NCBI RefSeq assembly: GCF_002234675.1 | Contig: NC_019872.2 | Span: 15,705,575-15,769,574 of the forward strand | Direction: 5' to 3' | Length of the DNA: 64,000 nucleotides | Source of the DNA: Oryzias latipes | Lineage: Eukaryota > Chordata > Actinopteri > Beloniformes > Adrianichthyidae | Shown here: positions 34,363 through 49,300 of the stretch, in pieces | Numbering within the stretch: position 1 is the stretch's first letter | Layout of the letters: each line of letters starts with the position of its first letter | Position numbers and translations under genes: made by a program | Notes under the pieces: generated by a model | The model's database searches: none | Told to the model about the DNA's origin: nothing | What the model saw: the letters and a program-made list of their open reading frames with translations, nothing else

Positions 34363-37300
34363 TTATCTTGGGACATACTTCTTATCTTCCCCTGGAAATG
34401 GGAATTCTGGTGCTTTGTTGACGTGTCCAGTTAGGAAGATCCCCACAGTGCCAACGATGAAGAGGAGCATAGCAGCCCAGAAACAGACCTTGTCAATCAT
34501 CTTTCCAATCAATACCCAGCTTTCAATTTCCTTTCAAAATAACAAAAAAAAAAAAGATTTTAAATACATAACAGTTACCCAAGATTACATGCAGTTGACA
34601 TACTTACAGATCCTATGTCATTTTGCTGCTTTGTGCTCTCAGCAATGAAGTTACAGGCGTCCACACATTGCTTTATTTCCGGTGCAGCTTGAGCCAAGCT
34701 CTTGTAAAGGTTGGCTGTGCTGCTGACATCAATGTTGTCCACTAGGGGGCAGGAGATACTTTCAATTAGATAACTTTCAAGCAGGGTGTCCAATACCAGC
34801 CAAATGGCCACTGCCCTACTTCTTAGACAAAAGCCATTGATAACTAGAGATGGATATCTTAGCATTAAATGGAGTGTATGAAAAAAAGGTTTAATTGTTC
34901 TGTAATTTTAAATTATGATTAGAACAGGTAACGTTACAGAGTGGGCCCCAAGGCTGCCAATTCAGAAAATCCACACAGGAGCTATAATTGTGCTTTTTAA
35001 GGGAATTTGGGAAAGTTTTTATTTATATTTGTTAACTGCAGGAAGAATTTAGACAGGTTGAATTTCCAGATTGATAATACTTGCAGTCCCAACATTACTG
35101 TGTTTATGTACACAAGACAACAAATTTAATATAATTCTGATTGGATGAGTTTGATGAGTAAAAACTTTGATAGCCCACTCAAAGCTCTGACCTTAACTCA
35201 ACAGAAAATATTAGTACATTTACAAGAACCAAATTATTTCATATTCTAAGCGATTTTCTAAATAGAGAAAAAAAATGAAAGTGCAGTTGTGTACAGTTTT
35301 TTTTGTTTAGTGTTGGATGCAATCGTTTTAATACAATATCATTAAAATCTCTGTTTTTTAATGATTAGATGTAGAAATGTTTTCAATACTATTTCCTCTT
35401 AAATGGCGAGGCAAAATCTTTAAGCAGTTGCAGCAATGTGCAATTATTTCTGTAAAAAAAGTCAAGAACTTGACTGAAAACATGGGGCAAAATTTATAAA
35501 CAGCTCACCAATTGACCGCGTCAGCCCGTGCCTCTCTCTTTGCTTATCGAACATCATTTCACTGCGTGGTTGTTTTAGCACATATTCCTCTGCTCTCTGC
35601 ATGAGACCAAAGGAGCTGCGGCGACGCTCTCTTATGCCGTTTACCTCTGCAGTCACCTCACTGTCATCCACCAGAGGAGACATGCCCAGGAAACGAGGGA
35701 CCATTTCCAAGCACAGCTGGACACACAGAAGGACAGCAGTCCAGAATAACAGAGGAAAAGACGTTTTTGCTCAAATTTCACGTTTTCTTACATGCTTGAT
35801 GGAGTAGGACATTGTGTGTGTACTAGGGCTGCGCAGCGAGAAGTTTAGCACCACAATTTGGTTTGTTGCAATCAGAGTGGTGACACACATGACAAAAATC
35901 AGGTATCTGAAAGGCAGAAGAGAATGTAGGTGTAAGAAGCAAAAGCAGCAGGTTTCAGCAGAAATAAAAAAACGACTCACTTTCCAATAAGAGGGACAGC
36001 GAGAGATGTCTCAGGGGTCTTCTGAGCAATGAGGAAGAGGAAGACAGTCTGAGCCAGCAAGACGGAGATGGACACAGTCAGCTTCTGGCCTCCAGCTGTA
36101 AGACGGGGGTGACAGAGACATTGAAGATCCTGATCCATCTTTCTGGGCTGATGCTATACAAACTAAACCTTAAAAAAAGGTTCCAATAGCAACATCCTTT
36201 TAAAATAAATTACAACCAATTTGGTAAAAGGTTTGTTGAATCTCCCCACCCCGTTCACACCTGGGTGGGGAGACAATGAGAAAAAGGAAATAGGCTGAGG
36301 ACGAAAACAAAATTTTTTTTTATTGGAAACGCTAATATTGATTGGAACCTGTCTTTCTGTAAAAAGCTGCATAACCAGCCAAATGCAGCATCACAGGCGG
36401 GGATCAGCCCACCACAGCATCATTGCCAAAAACTTTGACTGAGCAATAGGCAAAAATGTTTTTCTTGTTTTCTGACATGCAACCCTACAATCTAACTGAA
36501 ATGGCAATAATTTGGACTCATCTCTGACCTCCACACTCCTTCACATTTTCAGGTTCTTGTGCAGGCCTGACAGTGATGAGGGATGTCCTGGTAGGCCTCC
36601 TAAAAGCTCCCCTGAAAGACCGGAACGTCCTGGTCTTTTAGGGGAGCTAGGTACTAGAAGGTTGATGCAAAAAACAACTTTTGCATCAATGATGATTCAA
36701 GCTGGCTTGTAAAAATTGTTCAACATTTTTCTCGAGTGCATCTCACATGCTTAGCTCTACTGCATTTCCCACAAAACAATACTTCCTACGAACGTGTGCC
36801 ACTTAAAAGGGAAACACTTGTATGAAAGGCAGCATTTTTCTTCAGATAAACCCATGTAAGGTCTTTACTGACCCTGTGCAGGCAGAAAGTAGGCCAGTAC
36901 GACCAATGAGGAGATGAGGGAGCATGGCAGGATGACGTTAATGATGTAGAACAGGGGTTTTCTTTGAATGACCAGATTGAAGATGATCTCCTGATACTCC
37001 AGGTCATCTGGGGAATATCGAGTGTTGATCACTTTCCTGGCTGGACGATGGACAATGGCCCACTCCCCATTCTCTAAAAGATTGAAAGCCATTAAGCCAG
37101 ACAGGACTTCTGTTTTGCTGGTACAAACTATGTGTTTAGAAAGTACCTGTGAAAGCTTCAGGATCAATGTCCACCCACTCAATAGTAACATCTTCGTCTC
37201 CAGTGGCCAGAACTAGGTCCACTTCTTTGGCGCTGTACGTTTGAGACCTGTGATTGTTGTAGTGTTTCAAATATTAATGCAAAATCTTTACAAACATCAG

Positions 37301-40300
37301 TCATGAGTCAAAGTCAGTATAAAATCTTTTCATCTTTATTTTCTTTTTTTCATTTAGGAGGGGGATGTTTATTTGCATTTTGAAAAACGTAAATAATCTA
37401 ATTGTGGTTGGTCAGTTTAGTGCAATCGTTGACAGAAAAACAAAAAGTAATTAATCATGCCAGTACCAATTTACCCAAAATCAAGAAAACAAATAGGTTT
37501 TCCTACATACCACTTTACTGCTTCCATATGTTATGGCTTACAGCAGTCCTGGACTGCAGGGACCATATTGTTTTTGAACGTTTTCTGTCTTATTGCGAAT
37601 TTTAGCGAAAATGTAACTTCAGCCACATACTCTAAACCTCACCAAAATGTGTGCCTTAGTTCCTGATGAAAATGAATTTTGGGCATTGTGAATGATCCCC
37701 CACCCCCACCCCCCATCATAGCAGGAGAAACTGTCAAAAAATGAATGGGGTCAAAATCTCTTATGGGGCTCAAAAAATAATTCAAACCCAGGTAACAAAA
37801 CCAAAGCACACATGTCAGCGATATCCAAAGGACGTTTTAAAATTATTATCGGAAATGTGGCAATTTTCAAATTTTCAAATATCGAAAAATACAATTTATT
37901 CCAGCAGTGACAGGTAACCGTCTGAAATTAGAGCTCTGTCTCCCCCTCTGGTCACCAGCAGGAGCAGTCTTCAGAGTACTGAACATGCGGGTGTGTGCAG
38001 GGTTCTGCACACCTGACTCATTTGCAAAATCAATCACAGTCTACTTAAGCACTGCACCAAGCCTCAGTGTGGAGCATTGTTTGTGTCAATCTGCCTTCTT
38101 TGCTGAGCATTATATCCTTTCATGCTGTCTGATTCCATCCAGTTGTAAACATCCACGCATGTCTCACAGAAAAGGCAGACGGCTGGTTCAGATTGCAGCC
38201 GGTTTTATTGGCACAGCTAAAGGGCCACAAAACTAAATCATAGCGTGAGAGCATCAGAGAGGAAACAGGAGTGGTCAGAATCCAGGCAAGATTCTGGGCA
38301 GAGAAACAGGTTCAGAAGATCAGATCAGGCCAGGATGTAATCCAGGCAGTGGCACAAACAATACTTCACACTGAGACAGGCTCAGTACAGTGCTTAAGTG
38401 TACTGTGAGTGATTTCAAATAAAAGTCAGGTGTGTGGCTTTCTTGAACTGTGCGCCGGGGTTGCTGGGAGATGAAGTGCACTCTAAACTCTGGAGATGGT
38501 TCTTGCTGGTGACCAGAGGGGGAGACAGATTTATGAGGGGCCGTATAAGACATTATTTATTCTGAACCATTCACATTCATACATTCTTGCTCTCACAGTC
38601 ATATATACTCTCTTTCGCATACATATATTCTCTTACGCATCCATATATTCTCTCTCTCACATTCATACATTCTTGCTCTCACAGTCATATATACTCTCTT
38701 TCGCATACATATATTCTCACTTGCACATCCATATATTCTGTCTCTCGCATGCATATATATTCTCTTACGCATTCATATATTCTCACTTGCACATCCATAT
38801 ATTCTCTCTCTCGCATGCATATATATTACTTTACACATACATACATTCTCACTCTCATTGTCACTCTTAAAAAAGAATGTATGTATGTGAAAGACAAGTA
38901 TATATGAACGTGTGAGGAAGAGTTTATATGTGTGTGTGAGAGAGGAGTATGCATGAAACGGAAGTTACTTTGCATGAAAAGGAAGGCACTTTGAATGAAA
39001 CGGAAGGCAGATGATTTCTCGTGCTCTGATTGGACGAGAGGCCGCCACCTCCCATTTTGAACAGACGCTAACACGAACCAATAAGAAGGCCATCGGAACC
39101 TTAAGAAATATTTTATCTTCACCTCAAGTGGTCACAAATCTGTCTGCATCTCTAGAGACACAAAGGAATGTCTCAAATACCAATAATGGTAATAGAAGTG
39201 CCACCGAAACAGAAAATCCGTATCCACCTTATTCCTAGCCCCCATGAGCCTTTGCGTGAATTATGGGCGACACTTCCTGTAGACGCTGGAACACGCATTT
39301 ACATTAAAACAAATTCCTCTTGTTTTCGATCCATAACTACATATAAATGTGGGAAAACCAGCTGTCATTTCTTAAAAAAGGCAACGGTGAGGTGGAGATG
39401 AAATATTTGTTAAGGTTCCGATGGCTGCAGGACCCCCGTGGCTACTTCTTGCCGGTTCGTTTTTTTAAAAAAATAAACTTTATTAACAATATCTTGCACA
39501 TACAAAATACCAAACACAAAACTCCACTGTGTGCAAAATACAATCTTCACGTTCGCCATGAGAATGAACAAAAAAACATAATGATAACCATGTAAAACAG
39601 GTTATGCAAAAAGAAAACAAAAATAATAAGGCAAAGGAATCTGTTAAAGTTTCAGGAGAGACCATGTTTCAACTGTTCTGACAGCTTTTTTGTTAGTGGA
39701 AGATTTAATACTGTTCACATACAAAACCATTTCTTTCTGAAAAACATAAAACACGGTTTTTTTGTTGGCATATTTACACTTGTGTATAAAGTATTTAGCC
39801 ATAATTATAAGTAAATTAACTACATATATTTTTTCTGCAATAAGTCTTTCTTGTGTAAAATATCCAAAAATAATATGCTCGTAAAATAATCTATAATCTT
39901 CACATAGATGAGTTCTTATAAAATGTATCACATCTTTCCAAAATAGTTGAGTGAAAGAGCAAAACCAAAAAAGATGAGGCACAGTTTCTGGTGAGGAATG
40001 ACAGAATGAACAGTTTATGTCCAGATCTTTTTTAAACTTAGTAAAGAAATGTTTCACTGGATAAAATTTGTGAAGAATTTTGAAAGAAATTTCTCTGATT
40101 TTATTGGTGATGAAATACTTTTGTGGCAGGGTCCAAACCTTTTCCCACTGAATTCTACATCCAAAGCTGTTCCAGTATGAGATAACGGTTTTGTGGCAAT
40201 CTCATTTTGAAACAGAGAACGGATACTTTGATTATTCCTGCTAGCTGAAAAACATACCTTTCCACAACACAAGTCTGTTAATTTGGGATTTCTTGCTGTT

Positions 40301-43300
40301 TCATGTTAGCGTCTGCACTGTAATCCCTAGCGAGTTGACTGAACTTAAAAATTATTTTGTAACAGATTACGCAACAGTTAAGTTATATTATTAAAACTTT
40401 TAAGTTAACATTTATTAAAATTCATATTGTCAGTTGGCTTACATTTGTATTATTTCATGTAAAAAATATTAAGATTCCTCAACTTATAAAAGAGAGATTA
40501 TTTACTTAAAGTTTTTAATATTTTCCAACTAAAAAACGCTTTAACTAACTATATTTTTATATTACTCAACTCATAAAATATGTAAAATTCACTCAAATGC
40601 TTTATAAATTCTTTAACTCATTAAATGTATAGCATTGAAAATATTTAAAATTCTTCAGCTTAAAATGTATTCTAAACAGAGATATTGATACTGCCCCACT
40701 ACATTTTAAAGGCTAACATTGATAAAAACCAACAAACGTGAAGGCCACACAATATTGATTGCTTAATACACTTTTTTTAATTGCTCTTTAAAAAAAAAGC
40801 ACAAATATCAAGAGGATGAAGAAACAATAAGTGCAATAAAACTGCATTATAAGAGTGCCACACAACATATTGACAAAAAGAGTTGGTTTTGTATTTTACG
40901 GCAGAAAAAGCAAATGATCACAACAAAACACATTAGTTACATAACACTTAAACCAACAAATAGTCCATTCTGGAAGACTCACTCAACGAAACATTCTCCA
41001 GCGTCAATAAATGTCCTTTCAGTGGTTTGCTGTCCTCAAGGCTCAAGACAGCATTCTGAATAAATATGAAGGCAAGTTCAAGTTTTTTGGGGTGCTGTAG
41101 GTCCAGAGCATAGATGTCCCCGAAGAGTTAGAAGAGATTAGTCAGCCAGATGTGTGGGACCACTGACGGCAGCATCAGGAGCATCACCACGACAACTGAG
41201 AGGTCTGTGAGGTCTGGTATTCTGGAAAATACAAAACAAAAAACACAGATGAGTTCAGACCCTCAAAGATATTCATCACACTAATGTCCAAAACTGACAT
41301 TCCTGCCATCTGTCAATAGGAATCTTTTCATGCTAACATTCTGTTAGCTTTTAATCAACTGGCTATGATGTTTTAAGGACCAACTCCAATTAAAATTGTG
41401 TTTTTAAAAAGTTCTTTAGCATTTTTCTGAAGGAGGACATTTATAAAATAATTTAAGACTAAAGCTTCATTTTTCTTTATTCAAATAATGATGGATCAGG
41501 AGCAGAAAAGGTAAACGAAACTCCACTCCTTCCAATCAGGAGTCCCTGATGTTCGCCTTTCATCTTCCGTCTCAGTTTTAAAACCATTTAAAAATATCAC
41601 TCAGTTTACAAACTACAAACAATTGCCCTATTTATTATGTCACTCAATAAAATCTCAATCAATATTAAAGGATTAGTGAAAACCATTGACAGGGAGTCGT
41701 GTGCACTTACTGTACAGGTCTTGAAGAAGTTGGAGGCATCTTCATGCAGATAAACAGGAAGTGCAAGGAGGACAAGTGCCCGTCTCATGTTCAGGTCACG
41801 CTGGTCCTAAAAGAATAAAAAGAAATATCCATTACCTTTGAAGCAAATGCAGAGCAAACACTTCCAATATTTACTTAAGGAACTTTAAGAAATAATAAAA
41901 TGATACCTTTTCTAGATGTCTATTTCTAGTAAGAGGACAATACAGTGTTTATGTCATGATCCACTTCAGGTCAAAGACCCAAAGTCATTTGAAGGCAAGT
42001 TACACCGTGGCTTCTTACAGCTGTTTACAAATGATTTGTTATCCGTTTTTGAATTATGCACATTAGAAATTCACCTGGAGGTCATAAATCCTAACCAAGC
42101 TGGCCAGTTCCTGTCTGTTTTGGTGGACTTAGTCTCAGAAAAGGGCAGCTTTAAGTTACACAAACATGTAAAAACTGCACAATTTCCTCTGACTGCATCT
42201 ACTCTACATAAATCCATTTCAGATCTTGACAGATGAGTTTTCATGGTTTCAAATGATGGAATGGTGCTAATGCAACATCATTTTATTATTGTAATATACT
42301 GTCATAAAGACATGACAATATTCCAAAGTGTCTCCACATACATGGCAGTGGAAACACTTTGGAATATTGGCTATGTAGTACTGCAGTATTATATGTAGTA
42401 CTGCATAGTGCCAAAGTAACAGAACACAACTTGCACCTCCATTCCATTGTGCCACCTTCAGCCTGCAATCTAAATATGTTTAGTTAAATTGTAAATAATT
42501 TCAGCTCTATTTAGACCTTTGGCTAGTTAAAATGTGCATAAATGTTTCCATGCTGCCGTATAAATCTAATAATGGTAATAGTTCAGGATGAATGTATTAA
42601 ATAAGTATAAAACTCACCCACTGACAGGTCTTTTCTGGTGAAATGGTGACTTTCTGGTGAACTTTCTGAAGTTCAGTATCTGAAAAAGTCCAAGAGAGAT
42701 TTTTCAATGTTAAAAAATGTTTCAATTATATTCTGATCAAAAAACATTTATTGCACTACACAACCTATTGCATTTTTTGTTTTTTTAAAATAGCTCTAGA
42801 CAAATAACTGAGACAAGTTACCTCGCTGGCCTTGGCGTCTATCTGGAGGTGAAACACTGAACACTCTGTAGTTCGGTACCTGAACACAACACGAGCACGT
42901 TGATTAATTTATTTTTACAAAAACCTTTTTTATAACGGAGATCAGTGATTTATAAAAGCTTAAAGCTGCATTCAAAACCCAATGCTTCCATGTAGCAACC
43001 AGGCTTAAAACTGTTGGCGGTAGCTCCTCCCACACAACCGTTAGAGGCTTTGAGTGACATTTTTGGACAAATGTCCAGCAGCAAACTTTAGCCACAGACA
43101 GAGGCCTCCAACGCGAATTTCACACGCGGATCATGTTTAGTGTGATTGCAGCTTAACAGATCATTTCTACCTCTGAAAAAAAAAAAAAACCTCACTGTCG
43201 TAACTTACGGGCAGAAATGCATTTTGGGTTTGGCTCGCCATACGTCTGCTATGACAAACTAATCATGTATACATTTCCACATTAATCTCTAAAACAATCA

Positions 43301-46300
43301 TAACACACATATGTTTAAACAACAGTAAACCACATTTACGGTAGTATAAGAGCATTTTTAAAGCATTCATTCATAAACCATGAACGATACTTACCAAATT
43401 AAATCAGGGCTGAAGACAAGACGGCACCATCAGCGATGAGGCGGATGAAAAAAAAACCGAGGTTGGGGCGTCTTGAAGCGGGACGAAATCGCAACGCTTT
43501 GCAGAATAATAAAATGCTCGACTTTCAATTTCAAACGTCGCATACTCGCATTCGGCAAATCCAACATGGCCACCTGAGCTAACGTAGAGAAAACGAAAGA
43601 CCCTCCCACCAGTACGTGATGACGTCATGACGCTACTTCACGGATCTTAAAATTTTTGAGTGCCAGATACAAATAAGCTTTAAAATATTTAGCACTGTTA
43701 AGTTAAATTTGAAAAAATCTTGATAGAGCTTAATACTTTATAGTTGAATCAACTACAAAATGACATTTAAGTTGTGTAACCTTAATAGTTATGAGTCAGT
43801 ACAAGTGATAGGGTTTAGAGGGTGTTCAAAATGGGAGGTGGCGGCCTCTCGTCCAATCAGAGCACGAGAAATCATCTGCCTTCCGTTTCATTCAAAGTGC
43901 CTTCCTTTTCATTCAAAGTGCCTTCCTTTTCATGCAAAGTAACTTCCGTTTCATGCATACTCCTCTCTCACACACACATATAAACTCTTCCTCACACGTT
44001 CATATATACTTGTCTTTCACATACATACATTCTTTTTTAAGAGCGACAATGAGAGTGAGAATGTATGTATGTGTAAAGTAATATATATGCATGCGAGAGA
44101 GAGAATATATGGATGTGCAAGTGAGAATATATGAATGCGTAAGAGAATATATATGCATGCGAGAGAGAGAATATATGGATGTGCAAGTGAGAATATATGT
44201 ATGCGAAAGAGAGTATATATGACTGTGAGAGCAAGAATGTATGAATGTGAGAGAGAGAATATATGGATGCGTAAGAGAATATATGTATGCGAAAGAGAGT
44301 ATATATGACTGTGAGAGCAAGAATGTATGAATGTGAGAGAGAGAATATATGGATGCGTAAGAGAATATATGTATGCGAAAGAGAGTATATATGACTGCGA
44401 GAGCAAGAATGTATGAATGTGAATGGTTCAGAATAAATAATGTCTTATACGGCCCCTCATACAGATTTCTGATTTCTGACAGCATGTTGGAAAATGAAAA
44501 TGCACAAACATTTTCTTAACTTTATGATTTAAAGGATCAGTTCAACCCCCAAAAAGATAACACTGCCAAATGGTACAGAGAGTTGCCCCCTACCTATTTT
44601 GGGCCACAAAAAGAACATTTCTGTAAAAAGAAATAGAAAATTCCCCTGATTTTAATGACAGTGACCTCCCCATGTTGAAACCTTTGAGCTACAAGCCAAC
44701 AAAATAAGTAAAATGTTTTGAGGTTCTGAGGTTTAGTCTCAATTTTGGTGTTTTGTCATAGTTCATACTTTTCCCCAAAAAACTCCACTTGACAAATGTG
44801 GATCTGTATCCTCTATCTCAATAAAAACCATTAGTCATCAACAGGCAATGAGAAGAGTTTTTTCATCTTCTCATTAGAGAACAATTTACAATGCAACCAA
44901 GGCAAAAAAAAAAAAAAAAAAATTTCTATGCCTTTTTGGCTTGGGTGAATAATATCCACAATCAATGTTTCTAAAAATGTGTTCTACCATTTTGTGCTAC
45001 AGAGTTAGGGCAATTGACCTCTGATTGGAAGGTTGTATATTCGGGTCCTGTCTTGCCTCCCCATGTGACAAAGTGTCCTTGGGCAAGACACTGAAACCCA
45101 CATTGCTCCTGGTGGTTACAAGTTAGCACCTTGCATGCCAGCTGAGCCACCATCAGTGGGTGAATATGTGTGTGCATGGGTGAATGAGACTGCGACCTCA
45201 ACCAAAGCAGGACAATGCTAAACGTGTAAATGCCATTTAATTAAAGGGCATGGATTTAAAAAAAGATGGATATACTGGAAGAATTCTCCAAGTTGTCAAT
45301 AGTTTCCATACATGCCAGGTAATCAAAGTTACCTAGATTAAATTCTGGGAACTAAAAACTGTTGAATATACATATATTTTCTCAAAAATGAAATGAAAAG
45401 ATAACAGTATGATGGGATTGCCCCCATTCTGTTCCAAGTGTAGAGAGATCATCCGCTGAATCATGCTGGACTTTTAGACTAATTTTATGAGTGAAAATAA
45501 AGTAAAAGCAGTTGTTTGTCTGTGGATCAACTTATCATAGTTTTATGCGAATAAAAACATCCCACTTGATTAAAAAAGAAGCTCAAAATGTTTGCACATG
45601 ACTGCCCGTAATGTTTAAGCATGAGTAAGACTAAGTTTTGAATGATGTGAAGACCATACTACACCTGAATGCAAGCGTGCAGTTTTGGTAATCGAATGGA
45701 AAGTAGGTGATTTCAATTGCACAAGTGCTGCGATAAATAGCAGGAGGGAGCCAGTACATCCAGCCCTCGTTACTGATCAGCACATTGGCGTAGTAAGCCA
45801 CATCAAATTTGCCATCAATGCTGCAAAGAGAGAAGCAACATCAAACCAGGTTCTGCTAACAATGAAAAGTTCACACTTTCATGTTTTTTCTGTCCTCACT
45901 TGTTTTCCAGGACAATGTCAGGGAGCCAGACAGTGTTGTATGGGACACGGATGGTTTTAATGCCGTAATACTGAGACGTGTTCCAGACAAGCCGATAATC
46001 GGTCCACTGCTGCAGATGAAAAAAAACAACATGTATGACCGAGAAGGGCATTTGATGACAATGCCATGTTGACAAAATGGGAAACGTCTGATTGGGAATT
46101 GCTTAAATCAGTTAATCACGAACATTTGAAAAGAAAAGAAAAAACTTACAATCTCAATCCACACATTCGTTGTAAGGGTTTCCTCCTTCTCATTCTGTTT
46201 TTAAAGAGCACACATATGAATATCTGGGAAAGCTACCTTTGTTTTCACAAGGCAAGAAAAGAAGAGCTCTTACCAGGGAGATAAGGTTGGTAAGTGTCAG

Positions 46301-49300
46301 CTTGATCATAACCTGTACCTTGTCCTCAGGATGCTCCACAGGGCGAATATTCTTGTTGTAGTTTCTGAACAAGTCACCGATCAGCTGTGATTCTTCATTA
46401 CAGTGGACTGCATAAAAATACATTGTCTCAGTTAATTTAACCTTTTTGAAATCCGTAGGAAAGCATAATTTTTTTGTTATGAGCCTTTTTTATAGTGGAG
46501 GTCCACCCAAATCTCCTATGACTTGTCAGAAATATATTTTTTAGAAACTCTCAGCAAGCTTATATACTTTACCACTGTACTGTTGAATGTGTAAAAAGTT
46601 TTTTATGGAAAAAAGAGTAAAAAAATAAAATGCTTAAAATATATAAAAATGACCAAAAAAGCTAAAAACATGTGGTTACCCTTTTGGGATTTTGTTTGCA
46701 AATTATATTGGATACATAAAACATAATTTTTTTTTTCTTTTGAAATTTGAGGTATTTTCAATCAAATGTTGGCTTTAAACTTAAATCTTTGCGTATTTTG
46801 CAGTAAAATAAATGATTTGCCAGTCCATGGACATACCACGTTTTGATATGGTGGTAATTTAGATTTAAAACTTCGACAAAATATTCTCAGGCAGTGAAAC
46901 TTGATCATTGGAATTTCAGAGCAATTTATTTTTTATTTTATATAAAGAAAAAAAAAACACGTTATTTTTTGATGCTGCACTGACTACAATCCCTATGATT
47001 CATGACCGTCAACCACATACCTATTTCTATCATAATATATTGCAGCAGAGGGGAGCTAAACACCGGCATAAAATTACTTTAGGTCATTTACAATCATCAT
47101 TAATGCTGACATTTTGCAAATTGGGAACGGAAACACATGTCTTCTAATAATCCAATTATTCTTGGGTCAGACACATCAAACATAGTCATGAAAAAGAAAT
47201 CCTCAAATGAATTTGAATGTTTATATTTTGTTGCATTCTATTTAATCTTAATGTTTTGCTGATTTTAAAATATTTAGATAATATTACAACAGAACAATGA
47301 ACAATAAAGGTTCATTGTTAGAAATGGCTTTTGAAATACACAGCATGAACTACATGCTACTTTAATTTTTTGAGAGCTTTGACGCTGTCACATCCTGCCG
47401 TGTGAACAGTCTGAGAAAAATACCCCACAAAGATGAAACAGAGGCAGAACATTCAGGTAATCATTGAGGGGATCTGTGGCTTTGGTATCCCCAAACAAAG
47501 CAAATACTAAGTGAACCCTAATCAGTATGACTGAGCTGACCCTTCAACCTGGCATGAAAGGACGAAATGTCAGAGCAGCATGATCATAAGTAAATATCAA
47601 ACTATCATTGTTGGAAAGCAATAAACTCTTTCAAACTGACTAGGTTTACAATGTCATTAAATAGTTGAAAAAGAAATTCGGTTTCGAGTACCGGTAAATA
47701 TAAGAGATAAAACTGATGGGACCTGGTGCTTTTGAGCAAAGCTAGTAGTCTTGCAAGCTTTTTATGTGCGTGTGTGAAAGAGTGAGAGTGTAACATAACG
47801 AAACCAAATAACAGAAAGTCCATTCCTAAATCTGAAATAAATCCAGAAAAACGAAATATTAGAGTTCCTCAAATCCTTCTGGCAGCAGAATGGGAGTAAT
47901 TTCTTGTGCACTCCTTTAAAAAAAAAAAAGTCTTCAAAGTTCATTTGTCACAAAGTATTTTGATGTATATTGCTTTGTTTTCTATTAATGACAATTTTGT
48001 GTGTTGGAGGGACGGGACAATTTTTATGATTTTATTATAATTCAAATTTCTGCAGTAAGAGTGGCACATTTCTTTATTGGCATTTAGGTGTACCCACTGA
48101 TGTTCTTCTTGAGGAGTATTTCTTTTCTGAAGAGGGGGACAAGACAACTAATCCCCCTTAAGGGATGATTGACTGGGCCGTGAAATCTTAGATGAGAACA
48201 TTTATGCCTCAGCCAGGACATTGAAAATGAATCATGGACAGACACACAACATGACCTAAACATACAGTGCCAAGACAAACAAATAAATGATAAGGTGTGA
48301 GAAAAAAAAATTATTTCCTGATACAGCAGGAGTTTAATTCAACAAAAATGAATCTGCTGAAGGAACTAAAACTTTTGTGACTCGCAGAGAATCCAACGAT
48401 ATAATATGTCCAAACCTCACACTACAGCTATGACCTTTAGTTACTGGATTATTCTTCAAGTATTGAGACATGTTTTAAGGAGCTGTAATATGAGATAACT
48501 TCCTGGAATTTAGCGTAATGAAAAGTTTAGTTTGAAAACGTATTATTTTTGTTTTTCCGTATTAAATAAATACAATTAAAACTGTGGACTGTAAACTTTT
48601 TCGGCATTAGGCAAACATCAATATTAATCATAGGTTCAAAAGATTGTATTCTCTTATTGTAAATGAACCAAATCATATCATAGTCTATCTTCAAAGCCTA
48701 CATGAATTCAAGTTTATCTTTGGCCCAAGACCCCACTTCAAGACCCCAGTTTGTTTTCAACAATGACATGTTTTCATCCCTTCACATGCCACTGTAACGT
48801 AGAGCCTGCATTACAGGATTAATTCTATCCTTGAATTTTGTATTGCTTTAATGACCTCTGTCAAGAAGATAAACTTAACATGGATTTTGTTTAACCGTCA
48901 AAAATATCCTTCCATCCTTTGTGGTCAACTTGAATGGTTGTAAGCACTCCATTCATATCCCACCTCTCAGTTCTGCCTCTGCAGCAGATTTCTGACATAC
49001 TGTGGCTCTTTTTTGTTTTCCTATCATCAACAAAGACTTGTTCACCTGCTTTGTCGATGCTTTCTTGCTAAAGTATAGGGATTTTCTGCTTCTCTAATGC
49101 TACTTTAAGTCTGGAACACAGATTCTGTGACTCAAGGTTAATGGCAATTTATAAAAATCTATTTAAAATGAGGAGATATTCCATTATTTTACTGACTTGT
49201 ATGAATGTAGAATTATAGAAAACGTTTCTACATGCTGATGACCAACATTATGAATGTTTCAGAGCTACTTTTTCTCTCAGTACAGACATTCTGCTTTCAA

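Follow-up and report, generated by a model that had tools for sequence, protein, structure and literature searches.

A foldback-shaped medaka transposon with IS3EU-like ends whose nested composite is the amplified form

The Drosophila foldback elements Tetris and Galileo, in the available parts of their descriptions, carry long arms with a tandem-repeat domain around a variable middle, vary in arm length and exchange sequence between copies (PMC4079207, PMC4168063, PMC3573991). They are placed with the Mutator and P superfamilies, and their target-site duplications (TSDs) measure 8–10 bp in Tetris and 7–8 bp in Galileo (PMC4168063, PMC4079207). IS3EU elements, and mostly GingerRoot elements, have TA..TA ends and 6-bp TSDs (PMC10045372), and one fungal IS3EU set ends in TAYGG..CCRTA (PMC12730594). 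The present analysis concerns a 5.9-kb transposable element of medaka, found in a window of 64,000 nucleotides from Oryzias latipes (assembly GCF_002234675.1, contig NC_019872.2, positions 15,705,575 to 15,769,574 of the forward strand). It resembles Tetris and Galileo in its tandem-repeat arms, variable middle, variation in arm length and apparent exchange between copies, but has a 6-bp TSD with TA..TA ends, whereas their TSDs are longer. On the other hand, it shares the TA..TA ends and the 6-bp TSD with IS3EU and GingerRoot (PMC10045372), while the available parts of the reports do not describe tandem-array foldback arms for those families.

The mobile family is the 5.9-kb unit itself, because the aligned copies from the same genome all hold the same core and lie at a mean distance of 0.37% from their majority sequence. 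The unit is a foldback whose right arm contains a fragment of a long interspersed nuclear element (LINE) and a 3.5-kb CACTG-ended element. The parts of the window copy, in window coordinates, are as follows.

38532..44461, no strand assigned: whole element, 5930 bp, TATGAGGGGC...GCCCCTCATA; ends and 6-bp TSD common to other copies in the same genome.
38526..38531, forward strand: left TSD, CAGATT, its 6-bp length set by other copies.
44462..44467, forward strand: right TSD, CAGATT, its 6-bp length likewise set by other copies.
38532..39061, forward strand: left arm, outer part, 530 bp, 528/530 identical to the right arm.
43825..44461, reverse strand: right arm, outer part, 637 bp, aligned to the left arm.
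38571..38857, forward strand: 22-bp tandem array of the left arm, 13.1 units, also with a period of 66.
44050..44422, reverse strand: 22/86-bp tandem array of the right arm.
38950..39009, forward strand: 21-bp tandem array, 2.9 units; right-arm partner at 43877–43954, 3.7 units.
39062..39126, forward strand: left arm, inner part; 6/65 sites unlike the right partner, plus a gap of ~20 bp.
39127..39387, no strand assigned: central loop of the original foldback, 261 bp, also present in the relatives L044 and L052.
39388..39459, reverse strand: inner right arm beyond the LINE insert, including the 3' target copy (39446–39459).
39460..40289, reverse strand: nested 5'-truncated LINE 3' end; zf-RVT domain in 39644–40201 (E 2.8e-07); boundaries from the arm alignment and the LINE-free site in L044.
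40290..40304, reverse strand: 5' copy of the LINE target duplication, 15 bp, with 3 mismatches to the 3' copy, compared by eye.
40304..40315, reverse strand: right arm, inner part, between both nested inserts, from the arm alignment.
40316..43822, reverse strand: nested CACTG-ended (CACTA/EnSpm-like) element, 3507 bp; TSD TG at 40314–40315 and 43823–43824; insert-free sites contiguous in L044 and L052.

The window copy therefore has the structure of a foldback, with very long inverted arms that contain tandem repeats around a middle domain. Each arm consists mostly of a ~22-bp tandem array, followed by a short run of reversed units and then by a 21-bp array. The differences between the outer arms are two substitutions in 530 aligned bases and indels of 86 bp and 21 bp, which are tandem-unit differences, and this agrees with the few substitutions and varying unit numbers described in the initial annotation. 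The coordinates given there were also right, as were the arm lengths of 531 and 638 bp, which count the CA/TG that flanks the nested insert. Inward of 39061 the left arm continues as CAGACGC... for ~65 bp up to 39126, and its partners in the right arm form three pieces (40304–40315, 39445–39459 and 39388–39425) split by the two insertions. In addition, each arm holds its own internal inverted repeat of array units followed by reversed units (38571–38943 in the window), and the left arm as a single DNA strand folded better than 100 of 100 shuffles (z −3.99).

The genome of the window (734,051,031 bases, 25 contigs) was searched with a tip query of 28 bases at up to 3 mismatches, which gave 169 forward and 170 reverse places, and the reversed query used as a control gave 0/0. 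The lack of further copies with the same tips had been named beforehand as a sign against a mobile element, and such copies are numerous. Thirty-five regions were taken around the best-scoring arm hits, and both tips were found within the stretch taken in 30 of them. The alignment comprised the window copy and 30 others, each 5.7–6.7 kb long; L013, L014, L023, L027 and L032, which contain composite sequence too, were left out. All 30 other copies hold the same core, with LINE and CACTG sequence present in 31/31. A single-piece match of more than 5.3 kb to the window copy was obtained in 27/30 and a match in two pieces in L018, L030 and L034, at identities of 97.8–99.3%. The distance from the majority was 0.19% and 0.26% for the arms, 0.23% for the inner part and loop, 0.45% for the LINE and 0.40% for the CACTG-ended element, and the mean pairwise distance between cores was 0.72% (n=31). 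What had been described as an old, decayed core thus consists of a small loop, the LINE fragment and the CACTG-ended element rather than of a decayed transposase core, and varies between copies hardly more (0.23–0.45%) than the arms do (0.19–0.26%). The genome-wide copies and the low divergence support the earlier view of a recently active mobile family. Arm lengths were equal within a copy in only 6/31.

The junction between the CACTG-ended element and the arm, which is specific to the composite, occurred at 57+52 places genome-wide, compared with 75+88 for the insert-free arm junction, each with a control of 0. If one junction of each kind per composite is assumed, other forms account for some tens of the insert-free junctions. 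A 15-base tip search gave 151+157 places (control 0/0), and no second group of elements was found among the 100 places listed from it. Furthermore, tip and arm searches in separate collections of genomic contigs, viral contigs, phages and plasmids gave no match, and no relatives of the LINE frame were found in viral contigs.

Relatives lacking one or both inserts were identified in the same genome. L044 (1305 bp) shares tips, arms and loop with the composite and has neither insert; both insertion points are contiguous, and its flanks carry no exact TSD. L052 (2147 bp) is flanked on both sides by the TSD GAATTA (by eye), lacks the CACTG-ended element and carries a different LINE. This LINE end (about 1020–1660 of L052, C7:23615700–23617910), with a 12-bp target copy seen by eye, lies a few bases from the LINE site of the composite and seems to have entered that arm spot independently. 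CACTA/EnSpm elements are marked by CACT ends and TSDs of 2–3 bp. Both marks were found in the nested element, which starts with CACTG, ends with CACTC in 23/31 copies (CCCTC in the window copy) and has the short TSD TG. The likeness to non-autonomous CACTA/EnSpm elements is confined to this 3.5-kb piece, a passenger in the composite. Other transposable elements lie within the long arms of a few Galileo copies (PMC4168063, available in part), whereas the nested form is present in 31/31 aligned medaka copies. The family shows that the amplifying form can be a transposon with two older ones nested in it.

The outer arms are far more alike than the inner arms. The majority left and right outer arms, which lie outside the nested insert, show 0/551 differences, non-repeat parts included, compared with 6/65 differing sites in the inner arms of the window copy (Fisher p = 1.1e-6); for the window copy alone the contrast is 2/530 against 6/65 (p = 3.2e-5). 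The switch from identical to diverged arms falls at the insertion point of the CACTG-ended element, and the inner-arm letters are kept in most copies (27/31 for the right 38-bp piece, 29/31 for the right 15-bp piece and 25/31 on the left). The inner arms of L044, which has no inserts, differ at 2/85 sites as against 12/354 in its outer arms; being no worse than the outer arms, inner arms are not intrinsically faster-looking. Comparison of the left with the right arm of the same copy gave 61 differing sites in 16,707 (0.365%), and between copies the values are 0.348% for left-left, 0.337% for right-right and 0.377% for left-right comparisons. The similarity of these values indicates that the arms form no separate left and right lineages. 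Ten of the 31 copies show no left/right substitution, and the arms of three are identical letter for letter. In the part of the alignment seen, L010, L031 and L037 carry most of one array haplotype on the left arm, and L039 carries it on the right; for none of the four is another of them the nearest core, although L039 ranks third nearest to L037. Conversion, or inversion of the core between its arms, could place a haplotype on opposite arms.

Gene conversion between the arms, stopped by the nested insert, would best explain this pattern of identity, and exchange between long arms was proposed earlier for Galileo (PMC3573991). The alternative that survives best, although it is doubtful, attributes the identity of the outer arms to selection on transposase binding sites or to the capture of new ends in one event. 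Ends needed for movement would be selected, and the tandem arrays may serve as binding sites, a role reported in Galileo (PMC4079207); however, the identity spans all 551 bp including the non-repeat parts and stops at the insert, and the occurrence of one haplotype on opposite arms of copies whose cores are not nearest each other points to exchange. Both substitutions between the window copy's arms also occur in L009 and L012; they therefore look inherited and give no measure of the age of this insertion. A recent insertion had been read from the few arm differences, but they cannot date it, because the substitutions look inherited and the arms seem to exchange sequence. The distance from the majority is a better guide to a young burst.

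An exact 6-bp TSD adjoins the TATGAG...CTCATA ends in 26/31 copies. The window copy has the direct duplication ACAGATTT on both sides, which the initial annotation took for an 8-bp TSD; the flanking T/A belongs to the element, and the TSD is CAGATT. All 31 elements start with TA and end with TA, partly by selection because tips were picked by similarity (up to 4 mismatches), and the bases after the terminal TA are TGAG except in L035 (TAAGAG) and L036 (TATGAA). The duplicated sites have G or C at 36/52 end positions (26 exact sites; p = 2.6e-5 against 0.40). L029 contains a second, slightly altered right tip (GCCCCTCATG) 184 bp past the first (L029:6398–6582), and its ends have no common TSD. 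An origin in a superfamily with 8-bp TSDs (hAT, P, Mutator-type foldbacks or Zisupton), with ends that would then read ATGAG, is improbable. The window copy alone allows it, and the TSDs and placement of Tetris and Galileo (PMC4168063, PMC4079207) speak in its favor, but an 8-bp TSD is possible in only 4/31 copies, the window copy included, as against the 26 with an exact 6-bp TSD beside TATGAG. Judged by TSD length, which is ~8 bp or longer in hAT, P, Mutator and Zisupton, the family does not fit these groups.

Polinton/Maverick elements have 6-bp TSDs, AG..CT ends and polymerase/integrase genes. This group was also rejected, as the medaka ends are TA..TA and no polymerase/integrase domain was present in the 10 core frames scanned. 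Judged by analogy of ends and TSD length, the driving transposase is probably of the IS3EU/GingerRoot kind, a candidate membership rather than a proven one. The available parts of four further reports (PMC3706591, PMC10853768, PMC9297572 and PMC4746887) leave this assignment unchanged.

Two further alternatives concern the locus alone. An old insertion in this intron, with the LINE and the CACTG-ended element nested in situ and the arms made young-looking by local gene conversion, is highly improbable. The inner arms (6/65) and the LINE target copies (3/15) are far more diverged than the outer arms, as such a history would predict, but the same inserts occur in 30/30 other aligned copies, 25/30 of them with an exact TSD of their own; the composite thus predates its arrival in this intron. 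An assembly error that created an inverted duplicate of one end, a possibility raised in the initial annotation, has only the near identity of the arms in its favor and can be dismissed in view of copies on many contigs with different TSDs, unequal arm lengths and insert-free relatives.

The explanation preferred here, with a probability of about 0.82, is a non-autonomous foldback, mobilized in trans, that passed through a recent burst as a nested composite with gene-converted outer arms. The ancestor would have been a palindrome of ~1.3–1.6 kb, in which two arms with 22-bp tandem arrays surrounded the 261-bp loop. The LINE fragment and the 3.5-kb CACTG-ended element would later have inserted into the right arm of one copy. 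This nested copy would have kept working ends, and its outer arms may have been made identical again by arm-to-arm gene conversion that was halted by the 3.5-kb insert. An enzyme acting in trans, probably an IS3EU/GingerRoot-type transposase, would cut at the TATGAG/CTCATA ends with a 6-bp stagger and move the element by cut-and-paste, the tandem units possibly serving as its binding sites. In this way the composite would recently have multiplied to about a hundred copies, including the one in this intron. A bolder version, in which an IS3EU-like transposase drives a vertebrate foldback and insert-bounded conversion restored the ends of an old, damaged copy and so set off the burst, is put forward tentatively and is rather unlikely as a whole.

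The element is apparently non-autonomous, as had been suggested, and movement in trans is inferred from the lack of a transposase domain in ten core frames and, by eye, in the sampled larger copies. Four copies of 10.5–12.2 kb were sampled or partly read as autonomous candidates. In three of them the parts read gave composite sequence and additional material: three 551-bp samples of C5:4469513 consisted of composite and extra material with LINE-like frames by eye, three 551-bp and two 501-bp samples of C2:7895495 consisted of composite and other material, and 7.4 kb of C7:19836268 (L032) contained the composite in three pieces and ~1.4 kb of unmatched sequence. The fourth, C5:28820511, has both kinds of arm junction at its two ends, and its single 551-bp sample showed a LINE-like frame by eye. 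The 81-amino-acid loop frame (39156–39401) had no Pfam match at E up to 1, and the Rfam scan (36000–47000) and the tRNA scan were empty.

Several observations weigh against the preferred explanation. Pfam scanning found no transposase domain among the ten core frames, only zf-RVT being above the cut-off, and no autonomous core was present in the sampled or partly read parts of the four larger copies. Searches for rve_3 and IS481, in which the best candidates only were scored, were swamped by hits to long frames resembling the pol of long terminal repeat elements, from which no IS3EU enzyme could be told apart; by eye, none of the listed integrase hits lay between listed tips, the tips being listed for contigs C1–C8 only. 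The medaka ends read TATGA as against TAYGG in the one fungal IS3EU set (PMC12730594). An exact TSD is absent in 5/31 copies, of which L021 and L036 are off by 1 base and L029, L035 and L042 are out of register (L042 shifted by one base). The ends of the nested CACTG element are alike only weakly, 17/500 shuffles scoring as well. The excess of differences in the inner arms rests on few sites, and without the 15-bp stretch beside the LINE it falls to 3/50 in the window copy (p = 0.005). Moreover, the 31 copies were top hits with tips chosen by similarity, so that older copies are under-represented and the uniformity is overstated.

Other arrangements of family sequence were also observed. At C14:18422496–18433136 two composites seem to stand tail to tail, with junction positions that place the meeting of their right arms within ~1 kb; with usual arm lengths assumed, the right tips abut or overlap by coordinates and would form a very large palindrome. 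Two CACTG/arm junctions of the same orientation, 872 bp apart at C10:18650323 and 18651195, suggest a partial tandem duplication of the right arm. L055 (C1:24467850–24469850), the one additional single tip traced from the 15-base search, contains at 49–407 a diverged family arm with an intact tip, followed by non-matching sequence, which may be a solo arm or the edge of another interior.

The intron that hosts the element belongs to a gene for a gamma/epsilon-type subunit of the muscle acetylcholine receptor; two frames of this gene were recorded.

45634..45840, reverse strand: frame with the host exon upstream of the intron; Neur_chan_LBD, nicotinic acetylcholine receptor gamma/epsilon.
37139..37273, reverse strand: frame with the host exon downstream of the intron, identified by eye.

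The best PDB matches of the first frame were muscle acetylcholine-receptor gamma and epsilon chains. Together with the Neur_chan_LBD domain, these support the intron of a gamma/epsilon-type gene in the earlier placement, while its naming as intron 5 of CHRNE is plausible only.

The searched part of the open-access literature on Zisupton, IS3EU, GingerRoot and fish foldbacks contained no description of the medaka element, Repbase and Dfam being outside this search. What sets the element apart from that literature is the combination of a foldback shape and IS3EU-like ends with amplification in the nested, composite form. How foldbacks maintain identical arms can be tested cleanly in this family, whose most useful property is the homogenization boundary: the nested insert marks where homogenization seems to stop, the insert-free relatives represent the original state, and replicate outcomes come from about a hundred copies, of which 31 were aligned. 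The arm identity of such elements should not be used to date their insertion. Inverted repeats that are this long, alike and numerous may also be regarded as candidates for rearrangements and for differences between medaka strains.

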